Positions 1,784 to 37,567 of a stretch of DNA of 54,189 bases are shown here, one piece after another. The position numbers and the translations under genes are program-made. Source of the DNA: Dehalococcoidia bacterium. GTDB lineage: Bacteria; Chloroflexota; Dehalococcoidia; Dehalococcoidales; RBG-16-60-22. Where the stretch lies: the NCBI GenBank assembly GCA_011192005.1, contig DUFB01000068.1, positions 1-54,189 of the forward strand, written 5' to 3'. The notes under the pieces were generated by a model that made no database searches, was not told the origin of the DNA, and was given only the letters and a program-made list of their open reading frames with translations. Each line of letters opens with the position of its first letter. Positions within the stretch are counted from its first letter, which is position 1.

Positions 1784-1830
1784 AACATATGGAAAGAATT
1801 ACCAACCGGCTAAACATGATTAGAGGAGGA

Positions 1831-2919
1831 ATGAAACCAACAATGAAGAAATTATTTATCCTGATTTGTATCGCGCTCATTGCATCCCTGTTTACTGGCA
1901 CTCTGGTATCCTGCGGTGAACCGGAAAAGACGACAACACCCACGACACAACCAACGACAACACAACCAACCACCACGGCACCCCCCGAGCCGGTGGTCCT
2001 CAGTTTTGCCAGTGCAGCCATGGGGAACTATCAGGATCTCGAGCTGGCTTTCGCCGAAGCATTTAACGCCCGCTGCGGCCCCGCCTACACCATCGAGTAC
2101 TTCCCGGCCGAATCGAAGCTTGCTTTCCCAGAGCTTCTAGACGGCGTGAGGACCGGTGCGGCCGATATGGCGGCGGTTACCCCCAATTTCAATTCCTTCG
2201 ACGAGCCGAAGCTGGGCGCGGTAGAGATACCCTTCCTGTTTAACAACCTGGAAGCCCACCGATACGCTGTCCCGCAACTCTATCCTTTGTATGCCGAAAT
2301 ACTGGAGAACCAGTTCAACCAGAAGCTGCTGTGCCTGCATAACTACACCGGCATGGCTCTTATCTCCAACCGGTCGGTGAAGACCCTGGCGGATTGGGAC
2401 GGACTGCTGGTACAGGCGATATCCCCCGTGATTGCGTCAACGATTGAGGCACTGGGCGGCTCCGCGGTAACCGGAGTGCCCTATACCGATTCCTATTCAA
2501 TGCTGGAGAAAGGAACCGTGGACGCGGTGATAACGGCACCAGCCGCTATGCGCGTCTTCGGACTGCCGGATGTAGCCGACTACATGACGGCAGCCTACAT
2601 GACCCCGGCCGTACATGGCTTCTCCATAAATCTGGACACCTGGAACAGCCTGCCGGCGGACGTCCAGGCTATACTACTTGAAGAAGCGCAGAAATATTCG
2701 GACATGATCGACCAGTGGGTCGCCGACGAATGGATTACCGACCACCAGGCAATCGCCGATGCCGGAGTGGATATATACTATCCGCCTCAGTCGGAGATAA
2801 ACCTCTGGAAAGCAGCCTGCCAGTCGGTTATTGACGACCTGCTAGCCCAGTACGGGGCGTTTGGCGATCAGATAATGGCAATTGCTGATGAAGCAAATGC
2901 TTTATATCCCAATGATTAG
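1831..2919 (+). CDS. dctP: TRAP transporter substrate-binding lipoprotein (DctP type)
   Basis: Extracytoplasmic solute receptor of a tripartite ATP-independent periplasmic transporter, which uses an ion gradient to import an organic acid-like substrate. It has a lipoprotein signal peptide with lipobox LVSC, then a Thr/Pro-rich linker of TTTQPTTT repeats that would hold the domain off the membrane. The DctP fold follows, including the segment MLEKGTVDAVITAPAAM typical of the family. AGGAGG at 1824-1829 serves ATG 1831 (very close) or ATG 1843 (13 bp); an upstream ATG at 1789 has no such signal. It lies 47 bp after the IclR gene. The substrate is unknown. Confidence 0.92.
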   Translation: MKPTMKKLFILICIALIASLFTGTLVSCGEPEKTTTPTTQPTTTQPTTTAPPEPVVLSFASAAMGNYQDLELAFAEAFNARCGPAYTIEYFPAESKLAFPELLDGVRTGAADMAAVTPNFNSFDEPKLGAVEIPFLFNNLEAHRYAVPQLYPLYAEILENQFNQKLLCLHNYTGMALISNRSVKTLADWDGLLVQAISPVIASTIEALGGSAVTGVPYTDSYSMLEKGTVDAVITAPAAMRVFGLPDVADYMTAAYMTPAVHGFSINLDTWNSLPADVQAILLEEAQKYSDMIDQWVADEWITDHQAIADAGVDIYYPPQSEINLWKAACQSVIDDLLAQYGAFGDQIMAIADEANALYPND

Positions 2920-2920
2920 G

Positions 2921-2960
2921 TAAAAAAAAGACGCGCCCGCGGCTGTTACACCGCGGGCGC
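2921..2960. terminator. strong hairpin between dctP and dctQ
   Basis: A perfect 10-bp GC stem, GCGCCCGCGG (2933-2942) with CCGCGGGCGC (2951-2960), encloses an 8-base loop. It is preceded by an A-tract (2922-2929) and not followed by T residues. On the plus strand it therefore lacks the U-tract of a full terminator. It more likely acts as an mRNA 3' stabiliser or partial attenuator, giving more binding protein than permease. In the minus direction it would read as a classical hairpin plus T-tract. Confidence 0.6.
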
Positions 2961-3003
2961 AAATACGGATTAGAATAAGAATATCCTCAAGGAGTTATCA
3001 TCA

Positions 3004-3543
3004 TTGTTCATCAGGATACTCCGTAAACTGGACTATTGGATTGGCAGTCTCAGTGAACACCTGTTGCTGATATGTGGAACCATGATATTATTGATGGCGT
3101 TTCTGGCAACCTTTGGTGTCATCATGCGACATATATTTGACCCCGAACCCTATTCGTACGAGTTCAGTTACATGTTCCTTCTTTTTAGTGGAGTCCTGGC
3201 CGTAGCTGGCGTGGAGAAGCTTGACCAGCACGTACGTAACGATCTCCTTGCCTCTCGTTTCCCCAATACCATGAAGATAATTATCATCAACATCATCTCA
3301 CCACTGCTGGCGATGGCTTTCTGCACTGTACTCATCTGGAAAAGCATGGATAATGCCCTTTATGCCCTGGACATCGGCCAGACCAGCCAATCTACCTGGC
3401 GGATACCCATAGCCCCAGTAAAATTCTTCATTCCGGCTGGCTTTATCCTGCTCCAGATTATTCTCTTCAGTAAATTTGTTAAGGGTATAAATCTACTTTT
3501 AAGAGGCGGCAAGGGCCCGGAGGAAGGCACTGACACCGGATAA
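3004..3543 (+). CDS. dctQ: TRAP transporter small permease (DctQ type)
   Basis: Four-helix integral membrane subunit that pairs with the large permease and docks the binding protein. Hydrophobic segments lie at about residues 20-42, 50-70, 92-112 and 135-155, and the DctQ pattern of a short cytoplasmic C-terminus is present. The start is TTG at 3004, placed 9 bp after AAGGAG (2989-2994); no ATG gives a better fit. It follows the dctP-dctQ hairpin and lies 24 bp before dctM. 179 residues is normal for the family. Confidence 0.88.
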   Translation: MFIRILRKLDYWIGSLSEHLLLICGTMILLMAFLATFGVIMRHIFDPEPYSYEFSYMFLLFSGVLAVAGVEKLDQHVRNDLLASRFPNTMKIIIINIISPLLAMAFCTVLIWKSMDNALYALDIGQTSQSTWRIPIAPVKFFIPAGFILLQIILFSKFVKGINLLLRGGKGPEEGTDTG

Positions 3544-3567
3544 ATGACGTAAAGAAATTAGGTAACA

Positions 3568-4869
3568 ATGGATCCAACTCTCGCAGCCATAGTATGTGTT
3601 GTAGGTATGCTCTTCTTAATGATGATGGGCACACCGGTTATATATGCTCTGGGTTTTACCGCTTTCGTCGTGGCTCTGTTAGCCTTCGGTCCCTACAGTC
3701 TGGAAAAAATCGGCTGGACTACCTTCAATACCCTCTATAATATTAACTGGACGCCGCTCCCGATATTTGTACTCATGGCATGCCTGATTGCCGAAACGAG
3801 AATCGGCGAGGATATTTATAACGCTGCCCGTAAATGGCTTTCACGTATCCCCGGCGGCCTTATCGTAACCAGCATCTGGGGTGAAGCCGCCATGGCCGCG
3901 GCCATCGGTACCAGCACCGCCACCATCCTGGCGGTGGGCAAGGTAGCCGAGCCGGAGTTTGAACGCTACGGTTACGATAAGGGTTTAGCCATGGGCGGTT
4001 TGTGCTGCGGCGGTGTCCTGGGGCCCCTGATTCCGCCCAGCGCTGGTATGATTATCTACGGCGTCCTCTCGGAGACATCCATCGGACACCTTTTCATGGC
4101 CGGGATGGTGCCGGGTATACTGCTGGCACTGATGCTGGGGGGAGTTGCTGTTTTCATGTGCTGGCGGAATCCCAAGCTGGGTCCTTCGGTAGGCGGCGTC
4201 AGTTGGGGAGAACGAATCTCCTCCCTGAAAAAGGTCTGGCCGATATTCGTGGTCATGCTGTCGATACTCGGTTCAATCTACTTCGGGATAGCCTCGCCTA
4301 CCGAAGCCGCTGGAGTAGGCTGTGTGGTGGTGCTGATTATCGGCGTCGTCGTTTTCCGCCTGCGATGGACAGGACTGCGTCGGGCTTTGCTGGAAGCTGC
4401 CAAGATTAACGGCATGATTCTCTTCATGATGATAGGTGCCTGGTTATTCTCGTATGTTATCGGCAGCTCCGGAGTGGTCAGGACCGTCACCGGATTCGTC
4501 ACCGAATCAAGCCTGTCGCCCTGGCTGATCATTATCGCCATTAACGTCATGCTGCTGATTCTGGGATGCTTTATAGACGCCATCACCATCATGCTGCTGA
4601 CAGTACCCATATTCGTCCCTGTCATCGATGCATTGGGTTTCAACCCCGTCTGGTTCGGTGTTCTTTACGTGGTGAACATGCAGATAGGACTGATTACTCC
4701 GCCGATGGGACTTGAGCTGTTTATGATGAGGACGGCCTTCAACATCCCGGTGGATAAACTCCTGCGCGGAGTCCTGCCATTCCTGATTGTTCTCTTTATC
4801 TTCCTGGCTATCCTCATAGCTTTTCCGGAGATAAGCCTCTGGCTACCCGAGATGATGAGAACCAGATAA
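3568..4869 (+). CDS. dctM: TRAP transporter large permease (DctM type)
   Basis: 433-residue multi-spanning permease that forms the translocation path of the TRAP system. It has about a dozen hydrophobic segments and family-typical stretches such as GGVLGPLIPPSAGMIIYGV and LITPPMGLELF. The length is normal for DctM. The weak Shine-Dalgarno region (TTAGGTAAC before ATG 3568) suggests translational coupling to dctQ. It completes the transporter with the two preceding genes, and the DUF169 genes follow after 71 bp. Confidence 0.93.
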   Translation: MDPTLAAIVCVVGMLFLMMMGTPVIYALGFTAFVVALLAFGPYSLEKIGWTTFNTLYNINWTPLPIFVLMACLIAETRIGEDIYNAARKWLSRIPGGLIVTSIWGEAAMAAAIGTSTATILAVGKVAEPEFERYGYDKGLAMGGLCCGGVLGPLIPPSAGMIIYGVLSETSIGHLFMAGMVPGILLALMLGGVAVFMCWRNPKLGPSVGGVSWGERISSLKKVWPIFVVMLSILGSIYFGIASPTEAAGVGCVVVLIIGVVVFRLRWTGLRRALLEAAKINGMILFMMIGAWLFSYVIGSSGVVRTVTGFVTESSLSPWLIIIAINVMLLILGCFIDAITIMLLTVPIFVPVIDALGFNPVWFGVLYVVNMQIGLITPPMGLELFMMRTAFNIPVDKLLRGVLPFLIVLFIFLAILIAFPEISLWLPEMMRTR

Positions 4870-4940: not shown

Positions 4941-5696
4941 ATGGGACCAGTGTCGCGCGATTATTCAGCGTTCGATAGACTGAAACTGGAAAGGGAGCCG
5001 GTGGGAGTAAAATTCCTGCCGACCCGACCGGAAGGAATCAACCGAATAAAGACAAAGCTGGCTTTCTGCGAGATGTTCTACGAGGCACAGCAGAGCGAGC
5101 CTTTTTACGTTCAGAAGGAAGACTTTTTATGTGTGGAGCCGCTGCTTCTGGGCATGGAAGACCCGGAACCTGTCCTCGTCAGCGGTTTTGCGGGGGGTTC
5201 AGCCGGACTGTTCAAAGAGACCAGAGCCAACCGTAAAGTATACCAGTACATCCCCAAAATGCTGAAAGGGTCGGTTAATGTTGTTGCTTTCTCGACCATC
5301 GACCGGATGGACTTTGACCCGGATGTGCTCGTGATTACGGCTAACGTAAATCAGGCACGGACACTCCTCAGGGCAGAAGGTTACACTACCGGCGATAAAT
5401 GGTCGAGCAACGGCACGCCCATCATGGCATGCGCGTGGATGTATATCTACCCGGTCATAAGCGGCCGGACAAACTTCACGATTACGGGGCTCAGTCTGGG
5501 CATGGAGGCGATTAACTCCCCGATACCGGAGGGACTATTCATCATATCAATACCCTGGAATGTTCTCCCGACAGTCATGGAAAACCTGCGGGATGATGAT
5601 ATCTACAAGAGCTGGCGAAGCTCCGGTAGAGAGGCGCACTTCAAGCGCTTTGAAAAACGGCTAAACCAGTTGCGCCAGGAAATGTCAGATTTATAA
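4941..5696 (+). CDS. DUF169 family protein, copy 1
   Basis: 251-residue soluble protein of unknown function in the DUF169 family. Family marks are the N-terminal REPVGVKFL, the FCEM segment, LLLGM, the central FDPDVLVIT, and the C-terminal PEGLFIISIPW. Three cysteines (C43, C64, C164) are conserved in all three copies in this window, which suggests metal or redox chemistry, though that is inference. A strong AAGGAGG lies 5 bp before the ATG. It sits between the TRAP genes and a second DUF169 gene, so it probably acts on the imported compound or its metabolism. Confidence 0.85.
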   Translation: MGPVSRDYSAFDRLKLEREPVGVKFLPTRPEGINRIKTKLAFCEMFYEAQQSEPFYVQKEDFLCVEPLLLGMEDPEPVLVSGFAGGSAGLFKETRANRKVYQYIPKMLKGSVNVVAFSTIDRMDFDPDVLVITANVNQARTLLRAEGYTTGDKWSSNGTPIMACAWMYIYPVISGRTNFTITGLSLGMEAINSPIPEGLFIISIPWNVLPTVMENLRDDDIYKSWRSSGREAHFKRFEKRLNQLRQEMSDL

Positions 5697-5737: not shown

Positions 5738-6490
5738 ATGAATCAGACCAGATGGGATTATTCCGTATTCGATAAATTCAACTTTGAAAGAAAGCCGGTA
5801 GGCATCAAGTTCCTGCTAAACAGACCGGAAGGACTGGAACAGACGGATAAAATAATGCCTATCTGCCGGTTGTTTACAGAAGCGCAGACGGGACAGCCCT
5901 TTTATGCCACCAAAGATAACTTTTCCTGCGTTGACAGACTGATACTGGGAATGATCGACCCCGAGGCTTATATGGTTAGCGGGCAAATCGGCGCCAAGGA
6001 AAAGATATATCAGGAAGCACGGGCCAACAGCAGGATATATCACCATATCTATAAAATACCCAGAGATACCGTCAGGTATGTGGCTTTCTCCTCTCAGGAT
6101 AAACTTACTTTTGAACCAGACCTGCTGATTATTACCGCCAAGCCGTCCGATGCCGAAATCATATTCCGGGCTCTAAGCTACTCCATCGGTAAGCCGTTAA
6201 CATCAAAATTTACCCCGGTACTCATGTGTGCCTGGGTTTTTGGTTATCCGTATATCACCGGAGAACTGAACTACACCGTTACCGGAATCGGCTACGGCAT
6301 AAGAATGCAGAGAGTACTGCCCGAGGGCCTTTTCCTGATATCCGTACCGTATGATTTAATCCCGATGCTGATAGATAATTTAAAGGAAATGGAATGGGTT
6401 CTCCCGATGACCACGCTCAGCGAGGAAGACAGAAAAGTATTTTCTGCCAGGATAATGGAGGAAATACAGGAAGAATACAAAAACGGTTAA
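5738..6490 (+). CDS. DUF169 family protein, copy 2
   Basis: 250-residue paralog of the preceding gene, collinear with it from end to end (RKPVGIKFL, LILGM, FEPDLLIIT, PEGLFLISVPY). The same cysteines stand at residues 43, 64 and 164. It is separated from copy 1 by 41 bp and has its own AAAGGAGG, so the pair looks like a tandem duplication kept as two genes. Divergence is large enough that they may form a heteromer or act on different partners. The function is not known. Confidence 0.85.
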   Translation: MNQTRWDYSVFDKFNFERKPVGIKFLLNRPEGLEQTDKIMPICRLFTEAQTGQPFYATKDNFSCVDRLILGMIDPEAYMVSGQIGAKEKIYQEARANSRIYHHIYKIPRDTVRYVAFSSQDKLTFEPDLLIITAKPSDAEIIFRALSYSIGKPLTSKFTPVLMCAWVFGYPYITGELNYTVTGIGYGIRMQRVLPEGLFLISVPYDLIPMLIDNLKEMEWVLPMTTLSEEDRKVFSARIMEEIQEEYKNG

Positions 6491-6523
6491 ACCACAGGAT
6501 AACAGGCCGGGTAAGGAGGAAAA

Positions 6524-7348
6524 ATGATCGGGAAAATCGTCATTGACGAGGTGAAGAAGCAAAGAATAATTGATAAAGCCGGTCATCTCGGGGCCGGAGA
6601 GGGAGTAAATTACGGAGCCTGAGCGCCGTCCTCATTCGCTTCAATATGCGAAGCCTTCAGGTCTGAAGGCATAGAGTTATTTACACCGGAAGTACAGGTA
6701 ATAATACTCCAGGGGTTGATGGGACTACATTCCGGTATAGCCTATACGGGAGTAGGCACTTGCGGCGGTGTTACCGGCAGCGCCTTTGCCGTCGCTTATG
6801 TCGTCGGCGTTACCGCCGAAGATATAGCCAAAAATCATCGCACTTTCATCGCTCCGTGCATCCCTGTCGTGGAGGATATCGTGGACAGGTTTGAGGAGAC
6901 GTACGGCGCCATAGATTGTCTTAGATTACGTTATAACCGTATCCAGCGTGCCTATGACTTTCTTGACCCCGACGCCGCGGTATACGAAGCGCTTTTTGCT
7001 ACCTCTCAAAGGCAAAAATGTGGAGTACTGGCGGACTGCTACGAGTGCGGGCGCGACCAGGGGATGCCCTCGGTCGGTGCGCGCTGGGGCGCGGAATCTA
7101 TTTGCGACTTATTAAATATGGAACCTGAAGAGCGGAAGAAGCTCCCACCGCATCTGGAAGGCTATGACATGGAAACACTCATGCCGAAGGTCCAGAAGGT
7201 CGCCGAACTGATGAAAGAACTGGGACTCGGGCGCCCTGACGAGAAGATATCCTGGCGGGAGTACCGGACACTCAAGCTGAAAGGTAAGAAGGGAGTTGAA
7301 GAAAGCAGGCCTTGCGGGGTCGATGCACCAAAGAAGGAGAAATATTAG
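6524..7348 (+). CDS. C_GCAxxG_C_C family redox protein, selenocysteine-containing (UGA at 6620-6622)
   Basis: ATG 6524 follows GTAAGGAGG and reads 32 codons to an in-frame TGA at 6620. The same frame then stays open to 7348 (274 residues in all). Around the TGA the protein reads EGVNYGA-U-APSSFASI, matching the family's first conserved cysteine in C-A-x-S/A-S/T. The remaining family cysteines follow: TCGGVTG (C80), YGAIDC (C132) and CGVLADC (C166, C172). A hairpin with apical loop GGTC at 6653-6670 fits a bacterial SECIS. Family members are thought to be redox-active and often lie near transporter genes, as here (TRAP, two DUF169 genes). The unusually long charged C-terminal tail has no known role. 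The alternative is a pseudogene with one nonsense mutation, judged less likely. Confidence 0.82.
6653..6670 (+). promoter_or_regulatory. putative bacterial SECIS hairpin for the C_GCAxxG protein
   Basis: Perfect 7-bp stem GCCTTCA/TGAAGGC closing the loop GGTC (6660-6663). From memory, an A-U-closed GGUC loop is the one found in the E. coli fdhF SECIS. The loop begins 37 nt after the UGA, at the outer edge of the spacing usually accepted (about 16-37 nt). It lies within the coding region, as bacterial SECIS elements do. Confidence 0.7.
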
Positions 7349-14954: not shown

Positions 14955-16793
14955 ATGCTAAAAGGTTATAACGGGAAAATCCTGCGTCTTGATTTATCCA
15001 CCGGGAGTATAGATTACGAATCCATCGATGAAGATATCGCCAGGAAATACATCGGCGGCGTCGGCCTGGCGGCGAAAATCCTCTGGGACGAAACAACCGT
15101 CGATACGGCGCCCCTTTCGCCCGAAAACGAACTGGTATTCATGGCAGGCCCGGTCACGGGCAGCGCGCTACCGAAGAGCAGCCGGTATATCGTGGCGGGA
15201 ATATCCCCGGCAACCGGCATCTGGGGTCAGGCACATTCCGGTGGTTACTTCGCCGATGAGCTGAGGCATGCCAGCCTCGACGGCATAGTGGTCAGGGGAC
15301 AATCGAGCAAGCCGGTGTATCTCTGGATTAAGGACGGCAAAGTGGAATTACGTGACGCCGCGCATGTCTGGGGCAAGGATACCTGGGAAGTATCCGATAT
15401 GCTACAGAAGGAGACCGATGCTAAAGCCAGTGTCGCCTGCATCGGGGTGGCGGGAGAAAAGCTGGTAAAAATCGCCGGGATAATGAACGACGGCAAGCAG
15501 GGAAGAGCCGCGGCCCGGTGCGGTCTGGGGGCTCTGATGGGGTCGAAGAAGCTGAAAGCTATCGCCATAAGGGGAACGCTGCCTCTCAGCTTTTACGATG
15601 AAGAAAAATTTAAAGAAAGTACGGATAAGATTCTTGCTTTTTGCCGCAACCGGAAGCTGGAAGAGAGAATCGCCGGCGACAGCCACGTGTTCAGGAGCTT
15701 CTTCGAGTTCGGCCGCGTGCCGGTAAAAAACTGGTCGGAAGGCTCCTTCGAGGAAGGATACGTTTACACGGATGCCATGCGGGACGCCGTACCCCTGCAT
15801 TGCGCCCGCTGTCCTAACAGCTGTCTGGAGTCGTACAAGCTTAAAAGCGGCGAGCGGCACATGGTATGGGAAGCCTGGGGTCCCCTGGGAACCAACTGCC
15901 TGATAGCCGATGCCGAGGTGATGCAGCAGGCGTACACCCTCTGCAACAAATACGGCCTGGACACGATATCAGCGGGGGCCGTCATCGCTTTCGCCATGGA
16001 ATGCTACGAGAATGGATTGATTACGAAAGAGGATACCGACGGCATCGACCTGGTGTGGGGCAATCAACTAGCAACGATGGAGATGTTAAAGAAAATAGGC
16101 GAGAGGGAAGGACTCGGGGAGTTGCTGGGTGAGGGTGTGAAAACAGCGGCGGAGCGTATCGGAGGGGATGCTTACAAATATGCCATGCACGTCAAGGGGC
16201 TGGAGTTCCCCGCTCATGAGCCCAGAGCGCTGGCAAGCCACGCCCTGGGATACGCCACCGGCAGTATCGGGGCGGCGCACATGGAGACCGCTGGAGCCGA
16301 CCACCTGGAAAACTGCATGGAACTCGATGACCCCCGGACCTCTCCGGAACTGGGTTTCCCGGTGGCTTTACAACGGTTCGAGACCGAAGGCAAAGGCAGG
16401 CTGGTGGCGGTAACGCAGGACTTAAGCTGCATGATGGACTCGCTGACGGTCTGCCTGTTCCTAGGCATGGGCCCGGGGATACAACCGTCGCATTACGTGG
16501 CAGTCCTGAACAGTGCTACCGGGTGGGACATGAACCTGAAAGACTTCTTAAAGACAGGAGAGCGCATCCATAACATGAAACGCATGTTCAGCGTGAAGCG
16601 CGGCATCAGCCGCAGGGACGATACGCTGCCGGCGAGAGTTCTCACCGACAGACTTACCTCCGGAGGTACCAGAGGTAATATTTTCGACATGGACGTAATG
16701 CTGGACGAATACTACTCCTACAGGGGATGGAATGAAGACGGTATCCCGACCCGGGCGAAACTGGTTGAGCTGGGGCTGGAAGAGTGCCTTTAA
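14955..16793 (+). CDS. aldehyde:ferredoxin oxidoreductase family tungsten enzyme
   Basis: 612-residue AOR-family enzyme that oxidises an aldehyde to an acid with ferredoxin through a tungstopterin and a [4Fe-4S] cluster. The N-terminus GYNGKILRLDLSTG and GGVGLAAKIL are family signatures. The cluster ligands CxxCxxxC are C283, C286 and C290, with a later Cys in the CLFLGMGPG region. The frame is open upstream to 14853 but would overlap the VOC gene; ATG 14955 matches the family N-terminus. It lies between VOC and a second molybdopterin enzyme in one operon. The subfamily is not the classical archaeal AOR, and the substrate is unknown. Confidence 0.9.
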   Translation: MLKGYNGKILRLDLSTGSIDYESIDEDIARKYIGGVGLAAKILWDETTVDTAPLSPENELVFMAGPVTGSALPKSSRYIVAGISPATGIWGQAHSGGYFADELRHASLDGIVVRGQSSKPVYLWIKDGKVELRDAAHVWGKDTWEVSDMLQKETDAKASVACIGVAGEKLVKIAGIMNDGKQGRAAARCGLGALMGSKKLKAIAIRGTLPLSFYDEEKFKESTDKILAFCRNRKLEERIAGDSHVFRSFFEFGRVPVKNWSEGSFEEGYVYTDAMRDAVPLHCARCPNSCLESYKLKSGERHMVWEAWGPLGTNCLIADAEVMQQAYTLCNKYGLDTISAGAVIAFAMECYENGLITKEDTDGIDLVWGNQLATMEMLKKIGEREGLGELLGEGVKTAAERIGGDAYKYAMHVKGLEFPAHEPRALASHALGYATGSIGAAHMETAGADHLENCMELDDPRTSPELGFPVALQRFETEGKGRLVAVTQDLSCMMDSLTVCLFLGMGPGIQPSHYVAVLNSATGWDMNLKDFLKTGERIHNMKRMFSVKRGISRRDDTLPARVLTDRLTSGGTRGNIFDMDVMLDEYYSYRGWNEDGIPTRAKLVELGLEECL

Positions 16794-36340: not shown

Positions 36341-37567
36341 ATGGTCCGCATGGAAGCTTTAAGTCCGGAAGAGCGAGAGTTGATGATAAGGCTCCCCACC
36401 CCCTCTTTTGACACCAACCCCTGGGTCACCGCTCCGCCTCTGGAAAAAGTCCGCCTGGCTATCATCACCACGGCCGGACTGCACACCCGGAACGACCGCC
36501 CTTTCCAGATTGACCCCAACGATTTCTACCGCGTTATACCGGGTGACGTTCAGGCTAACGACCTGGTGATGTCCCACCTGGCTGCCAGCTTCGACCGCAG
36601 CGGCTACCAGCGCGACTGGAACGTGGTCTTCCCCCTCGACCGGCTGCGGGAGATGGTATCTGAAGGTATTATCAGCAGCTTGGCATCTTTTCATTACTCG
36701 GTCAGCGCCGTGCACACCAAGGAAGAGTTCGATGCTCCGACGCGGGAAATCGCCCGTCTCCTGAAAAAGGATAACGTCAACGCCGCCCTGCTCTTACCCG
36801 TCTGACCGGGCTGTACGTCCGCCGTTGGCGTACTGGCTCATTATATCGAGGATGAGGGTGTAGCCACCACCGGTATCAGTCTTATCCGGCCCCACACGGA
36901 GGTTATCAAGCCGCCGCGGGCTCTCTGGGTGTCTTTCCAGCTCGGTCATCCCCTGGGCGCCCCGAACGACCCTGATTTTCAGAGAAAGGTATTGATAGCC
37001 ACTTTCGAGTTGTTCAAGGCACCCTCCGGACCGGTGCTGGAGGATTTCCCCGAAGATGAACCAGAGAACGATGAAATAACCATGCTGGCATGCCCGGTGA
37101 ACTTCGCCCGTAATATAGATAGCAGTAGAGAGACCGACGCGAAGAAGGTAGCCTTCCGGAGAGAAATGACCGCGATGCGTCCGTGGTACGATATGGCCGT
37201 CACCAAAAGAAAACGCACCACCGTGGGCGCCAGCTGTATCGACATCGAAAAGCTGGGCGACTTTATCTACGCCTTCCTGGAGGGTAACGAACCGGAGAAC
37301 CCCCGCAATGACGTACCCCTTTCGAATACGCTGAAACTGGCCGTCGAAGACCTGAAGTCATACTACATCGAAGGGATTACGGCACAGCCGGGCCAGGAAG
37401 ATGCCTCAAGCAAGTTGCTCCAGAACTGGTTCTGGGACGAGACGGTTGGCGGCAAAATCCTTCTGGATTTAAAGAAAGTATGCGAGGCAAGTCCGGATAA
37501 AATGATGAGCTTGATCGGCAGTCATTTTATCGTCCCCGGGGATGTCGCTCGACGGCAGACCGCCTGA
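36341..37567 (+). CDS. glycine/sarcosine/betaine reductase selenoprotein B family protein (Sec at UGA 36803-36805)
   Basis: One 408-residue gene that reads as two ORFs because of an in-frame TGA at codon 155. Across the TGA the protein reads LLLPV-U-PGCT, matching the U-x-x-C-T redox motif of GrdB-type selenoproteins (Sec155, Cys158). Both flanks are family sequence: the N-terminal part with LAIITTAGLHTRNDRPF and the C-terminal SLIRPHTEVIKPPRALWV and QLGHPLGAPND. A hairpin downstream of the TGA fits a bacterial SECIS. GrdB cleaves C-N bonds of amines with GrdA and GrdC/D, but none of those is here, so this is an orphan member with an unknown reductive role. The ATG follows AAGGGAG by 9 bp. 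Confidence 0.85.
36813..36833 (+). promoter_or_regulatory. putative bacterial SECIS hairpin for the GrdB-like protein
   Basis: Starts 7 nt after the UGA. One fold has GTACG/CGTAC outer arms, a bulged T (36818), a CC/GG step and the loop GCCGTT. The other has CGCC/GGCG closing GTT, with the loop G 18 nt from the UGA, the same distance as I recall for E. coli fdhF. Both put a G first in the loop as required. Confidence 0.6.

Follow-up and report, generated by a model that had tools for sequence, protein, structure and literature searches.

The DNA analysed here, referred to below as the window, is a stretch of 54,189 nucleotides from a Dehalococcoidia bacterium of the order Dehalococcoidales, in the anaerobic Chloroflexota. 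Near its beginning, transport genes and two genes of the DUF169 type are followed on the same strand by a gene with a seeming stop codon. Judged from its sequence, the most likely product is a redox-type protein of 274 residues, with selenocysteine (Sec) where the relatives have a conserved Cys. The features of the locus are listed below.

1789 to 4869, + strand: TRAP transporter DctP-DctQ-DctM (DctM by PF06808; DctP and DctQ by position and by likeness to related loci)
4941 to 5696, + strand: second DUF169-like gene, similar to that at 5738-6490
5738 to 6490, + strand: DUF169 (PF02596) gene, directly upstream of the putative selenoprotein gene with a gap of 33 nt
6513 to 6519, + strand: Shine-Dalgarno AAGGAGG, seen in the sequence, with a similar site 5′ of the start codon in orthologs
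6524 to 7348, + strand: putative selenoprotein gene of the C_GCAxxG_C_C type (PF09719), 274 residues when read through TGA
6620 to 6622, + strand: UGA very probably read as Sec33; the codon is TGA in two orthologs and codes for Cys in the remaining relatives
6635 to 6652, + strand: proximal hairpin of 5 bp with an 8-nt loop, the loop 17 nt after the UGA
6653 to 6670, + strand: candidate bacterial SECIS, GCCUUCA-GGUC-UGAAGGC, the loop 37 nt after the UGA

The frame runs from ATG 6524 to TAG 7346-7348, and TGA 6620-6622, at residue 33, is its sole internal TGA. The preliminary description had read the same frame with this single break, and had expected a standard gene call to start at TTG 6716 and lose the N-terminus; the sequence bears out the first point and the mechanical ORF list the second, since its table-11 ORF begins at that TTG. 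The listed start would suit a two-piece gene, whose translation would end at the TGA and resume further on, giving a shorter protein that lacks residue 33 and still includes Cys80 and Cys132. However, the codons at which translation could resume differ between the orthologs: codon 65 (TTG) here, codon 63 (ATG) in the ortholog from genome G002, and codon 36 (ATG) in the ortholog W403. Residues 1-32 are also under coding constraint. The nucleotide differences in codons 1-32 number 1, 2 and 13 at codon positions 1, 2 and 3 in comparison with G002, and 5, 6 and 16 in comparison with W403; 3′ of the TGA the ortholog comparisons have the same third-position bias. Because the differences concentrate at third positions, codons 1-32 are taken to be translated in one frame with the remainder of the gene; both a pseudogene and a separate start further downstream are disfavoured by this. 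All other relatives have Cys at the residue of the stop, and we consider a restart very unlikely. The corrected gene call matters in itself, as the standard start would omit a probable active-site residue.

How is the TGA form distributed among related genes? A protein search of 151 genomes gave a match in 28, and seven close full-length relatives came from five genomes. Two copies are present in genome G002: one shares 92% identity and has the TGA at the corresponding codon, and the other, 61% identical, has an open frame. In a scan of a genome collection the G002 match was record JAUWGD010000077.1 (Dehalococcoidales bacterium); the same scan gave W403 (DUFA01000153.1, Dehalococcoidia), which is 81% identical and likewise has TGA at this codon, and a Cys form from a Peptococcaceae bacterium. 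A profile search of 156 genomes of the order found TGA-bearing members in the source genome, G002 and G845, the G845 match having the position of the W403 match, and none beyond these three. In the tree, the Sec proteins of these genomes group on a single branch with support of 100/100. The Sec form and the Cys form of G002 (L071 and L070) occur together, each with a DUF169-like gene upstream. The Peptococcaceae Cys form (L063) has paired cysteines (ACCP, 6097-6102) at the Sec position.

In the alignment of 17 relatives, where Sec was entered as Cys, so that three of the C33 entries are Sec residues, the only invariant cysteines are C33, C80 and C132. The UGA is conserved in the orthologs and aligned with the Cys of homologs, and residue 33, the first conserved Cys of the family and Sec here, is invariant across all 17. 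The preliminary description had looked to Cys-containing homologs as support for its reading, and residue 33 is Cys in every other aligned relative, with no random codons. Its statement that the other family cysteines are intact holds only in part, the GCAxxG motif being replaced by TCGGxxG (TCGGVTG here, and TCGAV in many Cys relatives).

These comparisons bear on the possibility of a pseudogene or an assembly error, in which the TGA would be a nonsense mutation or a miscalled Cys TGC or TGT. Every genome compared is a metagenome assembly and the TGA is one base off the homologs' Cys codon, which such an explanation would account for. Yet the same-codon TGA recurs in three separately assembled genomes, which tells against a sequencing error; the third-position bias holds on both sides of it, and the TGA form is seen only in genomes with SelA. 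A TGA common to three genomes at 81-92% protein identity, with a strong third-position bias, is more than chance would give. The orthologs largely refute this explanation, and we regard it as extremely improbable.

The reading of residue 33 as Sec agrees with the gene content of the source genome (G000; 2.13 Mb, 79.6% complete). The sel genes, whose lack would have told against the preliminary description, are all present: selA (564.4 bits), selB (353.5 bits) and selD (400.7 bits, with its own in-frame TGA), together with tRNA-Sec (73.4 bits). SelA has been found in G000, G002, G016 and G845. Each of the three TGA-form genomes thus has it, as does G016, whose own form has Cys. It was not found in G062, G097 and G480, genomes with only Cys forms. 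G002 with both paralogs and the three Cys-only genomes without selA make up a natural Sec/Cys experiment.

Two other genes of the source genome have a similar interruption. In selD (L046 and L073; contig C69, 20620-21546, minus strand) an in-frame TGA lies in the motif GSGUACK, because of which selD is probably a selenoprotein itself. A formate-dehydrogenase-like molybdopterin protein (L109; contig C72, from 16685) has one in-frame TGA in ARIUHSPT, a context of Sec type (RIUHSPT).

If TGA were generally reassigned, to Trp or Gly for example, or read through non-specifically, an in-frame TGA would likewise be seen, and nothing else was found in favour of either reading. Against both, the homologs have Cys, not Trp or Gly, the Sec machinery is complete, and TGA-interrupted frames with family support number just two in the 54-kb window, the other being PrdB/GrdB-like, of a known selenoprotein family. 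Such decoding is so unlikely here as to be scarcely credible. The PrdB/GrdB-like frame (36341-37567, + strand) has 408 residues and one TGA, 36803-36805, in the motif LLPVUPGC. It matches PrdB (TIGR04483) at 99.6 bits, below the cut-off of 300, and also GRDB (PF07355), and by its sequence is a probable second selenoprotein in the window. The sequence also allows a CGCC-GUU-GGCG hairpin whose loop lies 18 nt past this TGA, though the MFE fold does not contain it; the standard call for the frame would start at GTG 36929. Four other TGA-interrupted frames of the window that were scanned had no family support, and a frame of this kind at 15402-16067 (− strand), antisense to an aldehyde ferredoxin oxidoreductase gene, lay outside the family scan.

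The Sec machinery, the TGA orthologs, the Cys of the remaining relatives and the constraint on both sides of the TGA uphold the selenoprotein reading of the preliminary description. We infer from them that UGA 6620-6622 is, very probably, decoded as Sec.

If Sec is inserted at this codon, then we can ask: which RNA element could direct it? The hairpin GCCTTCA-GGTC-TGAAGGC had been placed at 6653-6670, and lies exactly there with its 7 bp. It agrees with the four bSECIS constraints published in PMC13188914: a 4-nt loop starting GGU, a 7-bp stem, a folding energy of -10.6 kcal/mol, and a UGA-to-loop spacing of 37 nt, the upper limit of the 16-37 nt in the published model. A GGUC loop on a stem of at least 6 bp is present in 3/3 Sec genes and 0/7 Cys genes, and in both G002 and G016 the TGA of formate dehydrogenase is followed by a hairpin with the loop GGUCU. 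Synonymous changes relative to W403 are depleted in the hairpin codons 41-56 (2/15 vs 0.52 gene-wide; hypergeometric p = 0.0016, for a stretch picked after seeing it). In a synonymous-recoding control 9.9% of recodings gave a stem of 7 bp or more in this place, and 3.4% had a fold at least as good. The stem is not improbable because the coding sequence (FRSEG) favours it, and after this control the hairpin was dropped as a stand-alone proof of Sec. The idea that it is exclusive to Sec forms was dropped as well, since the Cys homolog L030 folds a 7-bp stem with the loop GGGC. The fold of the 67-nt region is modestly stable (z = -1.9), and the 37-nt spacing exceeds the 16-18 nt read for selD and formate dehydrogenase in the same lineage. 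On these features the distal hairpin is a probable SECIS.

The proximal hairpin (6635-6652) directly adjoins this candidate. All three Sec orthologs retain its stem despite codon differences; its distance from the UGA is the more usual one, and its loop, without the required G, places it outside the published model. Rfam gave no relevant match for the window at gathering level or for 6500-6760 at E up to 5.

The predicted model of the protein (mean pLDDT 80, pTM 0.76) consists almost entirely of helices, with helix starts at residues 33, 81 and 132, which coincide with or adjoin the invariant positions. Neither the sequence nor the fold gave a meaningful match among solved structures, and the biochemical role is weakly based for this reason. 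The DUF169 gene at 5738-6490 is a probable operon partner, and an SDR dehydrogenase, molybdopterin oxidoreductases and an aldehyde ferredoxin oxidoreductase are also nearby. The neighbours of the relatives vary; those that recur are TRAP or branched-chain ABC transporters, SDRs, aldehyde ferredoxin oxidoreductases and DUF169 proteins. The linkage to TRAP and DUF169 genes proposed earlier stands insofar as DUF169 genes lie beside three of the related genes and TRAP genes in some genomes, but the TRAP linkage is not constant. The open-access literature on DUF169 has mentions alone, with no function bearing on the selenoprotein gene. The helix starts of the predicted model and the neighbouring genes fit, without proving, a redox or metal centre in anaerobic substrate oxidation.

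A scheme can be proposed on this basis. SelA and SelD would make Sec-tRNA(Sec), and SelB would deliver it at UGA 6620-6622, most likely via the GGUC-loop hairpin 6653-6670, so that Sec33 would take the place of the Cys33 of the Cys-form relatives. Sec33, Cys80 and Cys132 would together form a redox or metal-binding centre. The protein would then probably serve as a thiol/selenol redox or electron-transfer partner of the neighbouring DUF169 proteins, in the anaerobic breakdown of an organic acid, the presumed substrate, imported by the TRAP transporter. We infer this redox-partner role and its substrate tentatively, as a possibility somewhat short of even. The invariant residue 33 offers a definite starting point for work on the biochemistry of this redox family.

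The assignment to the family holds at the Pfam level, with PF09719 (C_GCAxxG_C_C) matching residues 65-145 at 30.4 bits against a cut-off of 27, but not for TIGR01909, where 24.4 bits fall below the cut-off of 47.4. By its sequence the protein represents a divergent, longer C_GCAxxG_C_C subfamily. The preliminary description took Sec in this family to be new, which does not hold: two Sec forms of C-GCAxxG-C-C proteins are on record in PMC13188914 and one in PMC9312934, and the NCBIfam name of TIGR01909 itself contains “(seleno)protein”. The gene thus belongs to a kind of selenoprotein that was known already. Its subfamily and the lineage may be new with respect to the open-access literature, which was the literature covered. 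It is conceivable, though rather unlikely, that they represent a separate, undescribed Dehalococcoidales Sec subfamily. In it, DUF169 proteins and a long selenoprotein of the C_GCAxxG_C_C type would act as a redox module on an imported substrate, and Sec would be inserted via an unusual tandem-hairpin element whose recognition loop lies at the maximum UGA distance.

Among known systems, the HUGP/GUXX-star fusion selenoprotein (NF045501) has weak profile similarity to 14/17 of the aligned relatives, and Cys33 of L063 aligns to its profile position 24; the family name suggests that HUGP denotes a Sec motif at the same position. The present protein reaches 15.4 bits against a cut-off of 325, and the GUXX-star part is not seen in it. 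The Cys paralogs of Dehalococcoidia and a Peptococcaceae bacterium (L029, L003, L004, L005, L030, L059 and L063) are 58-61% identical to it over the full length and share its invariant cysteines; they differ in the Cys codon at residue 33, and three of their genomes are without selA. The C-GCAxxG-C-C (seleno)protein (PF09719/TIGR01909) belongs to the same Pfam family, with Sec members on record. PMC13188914 and PMC9312934 list Sec forms 1 and 2 without giving their Sec motif; the Sec forms on record are WP_012158890.1 and MGD8741185.1. Residue 33 aligns to model position 3 of TIGR01909, where the match starts, consistent with the first Cys of that model. In contrast to proteins of the TIGR01909 type, the protein encoded here is longer, with 274 residues and a C-terminal extension of about 110, and has TCGGxxG for GCAxxG.
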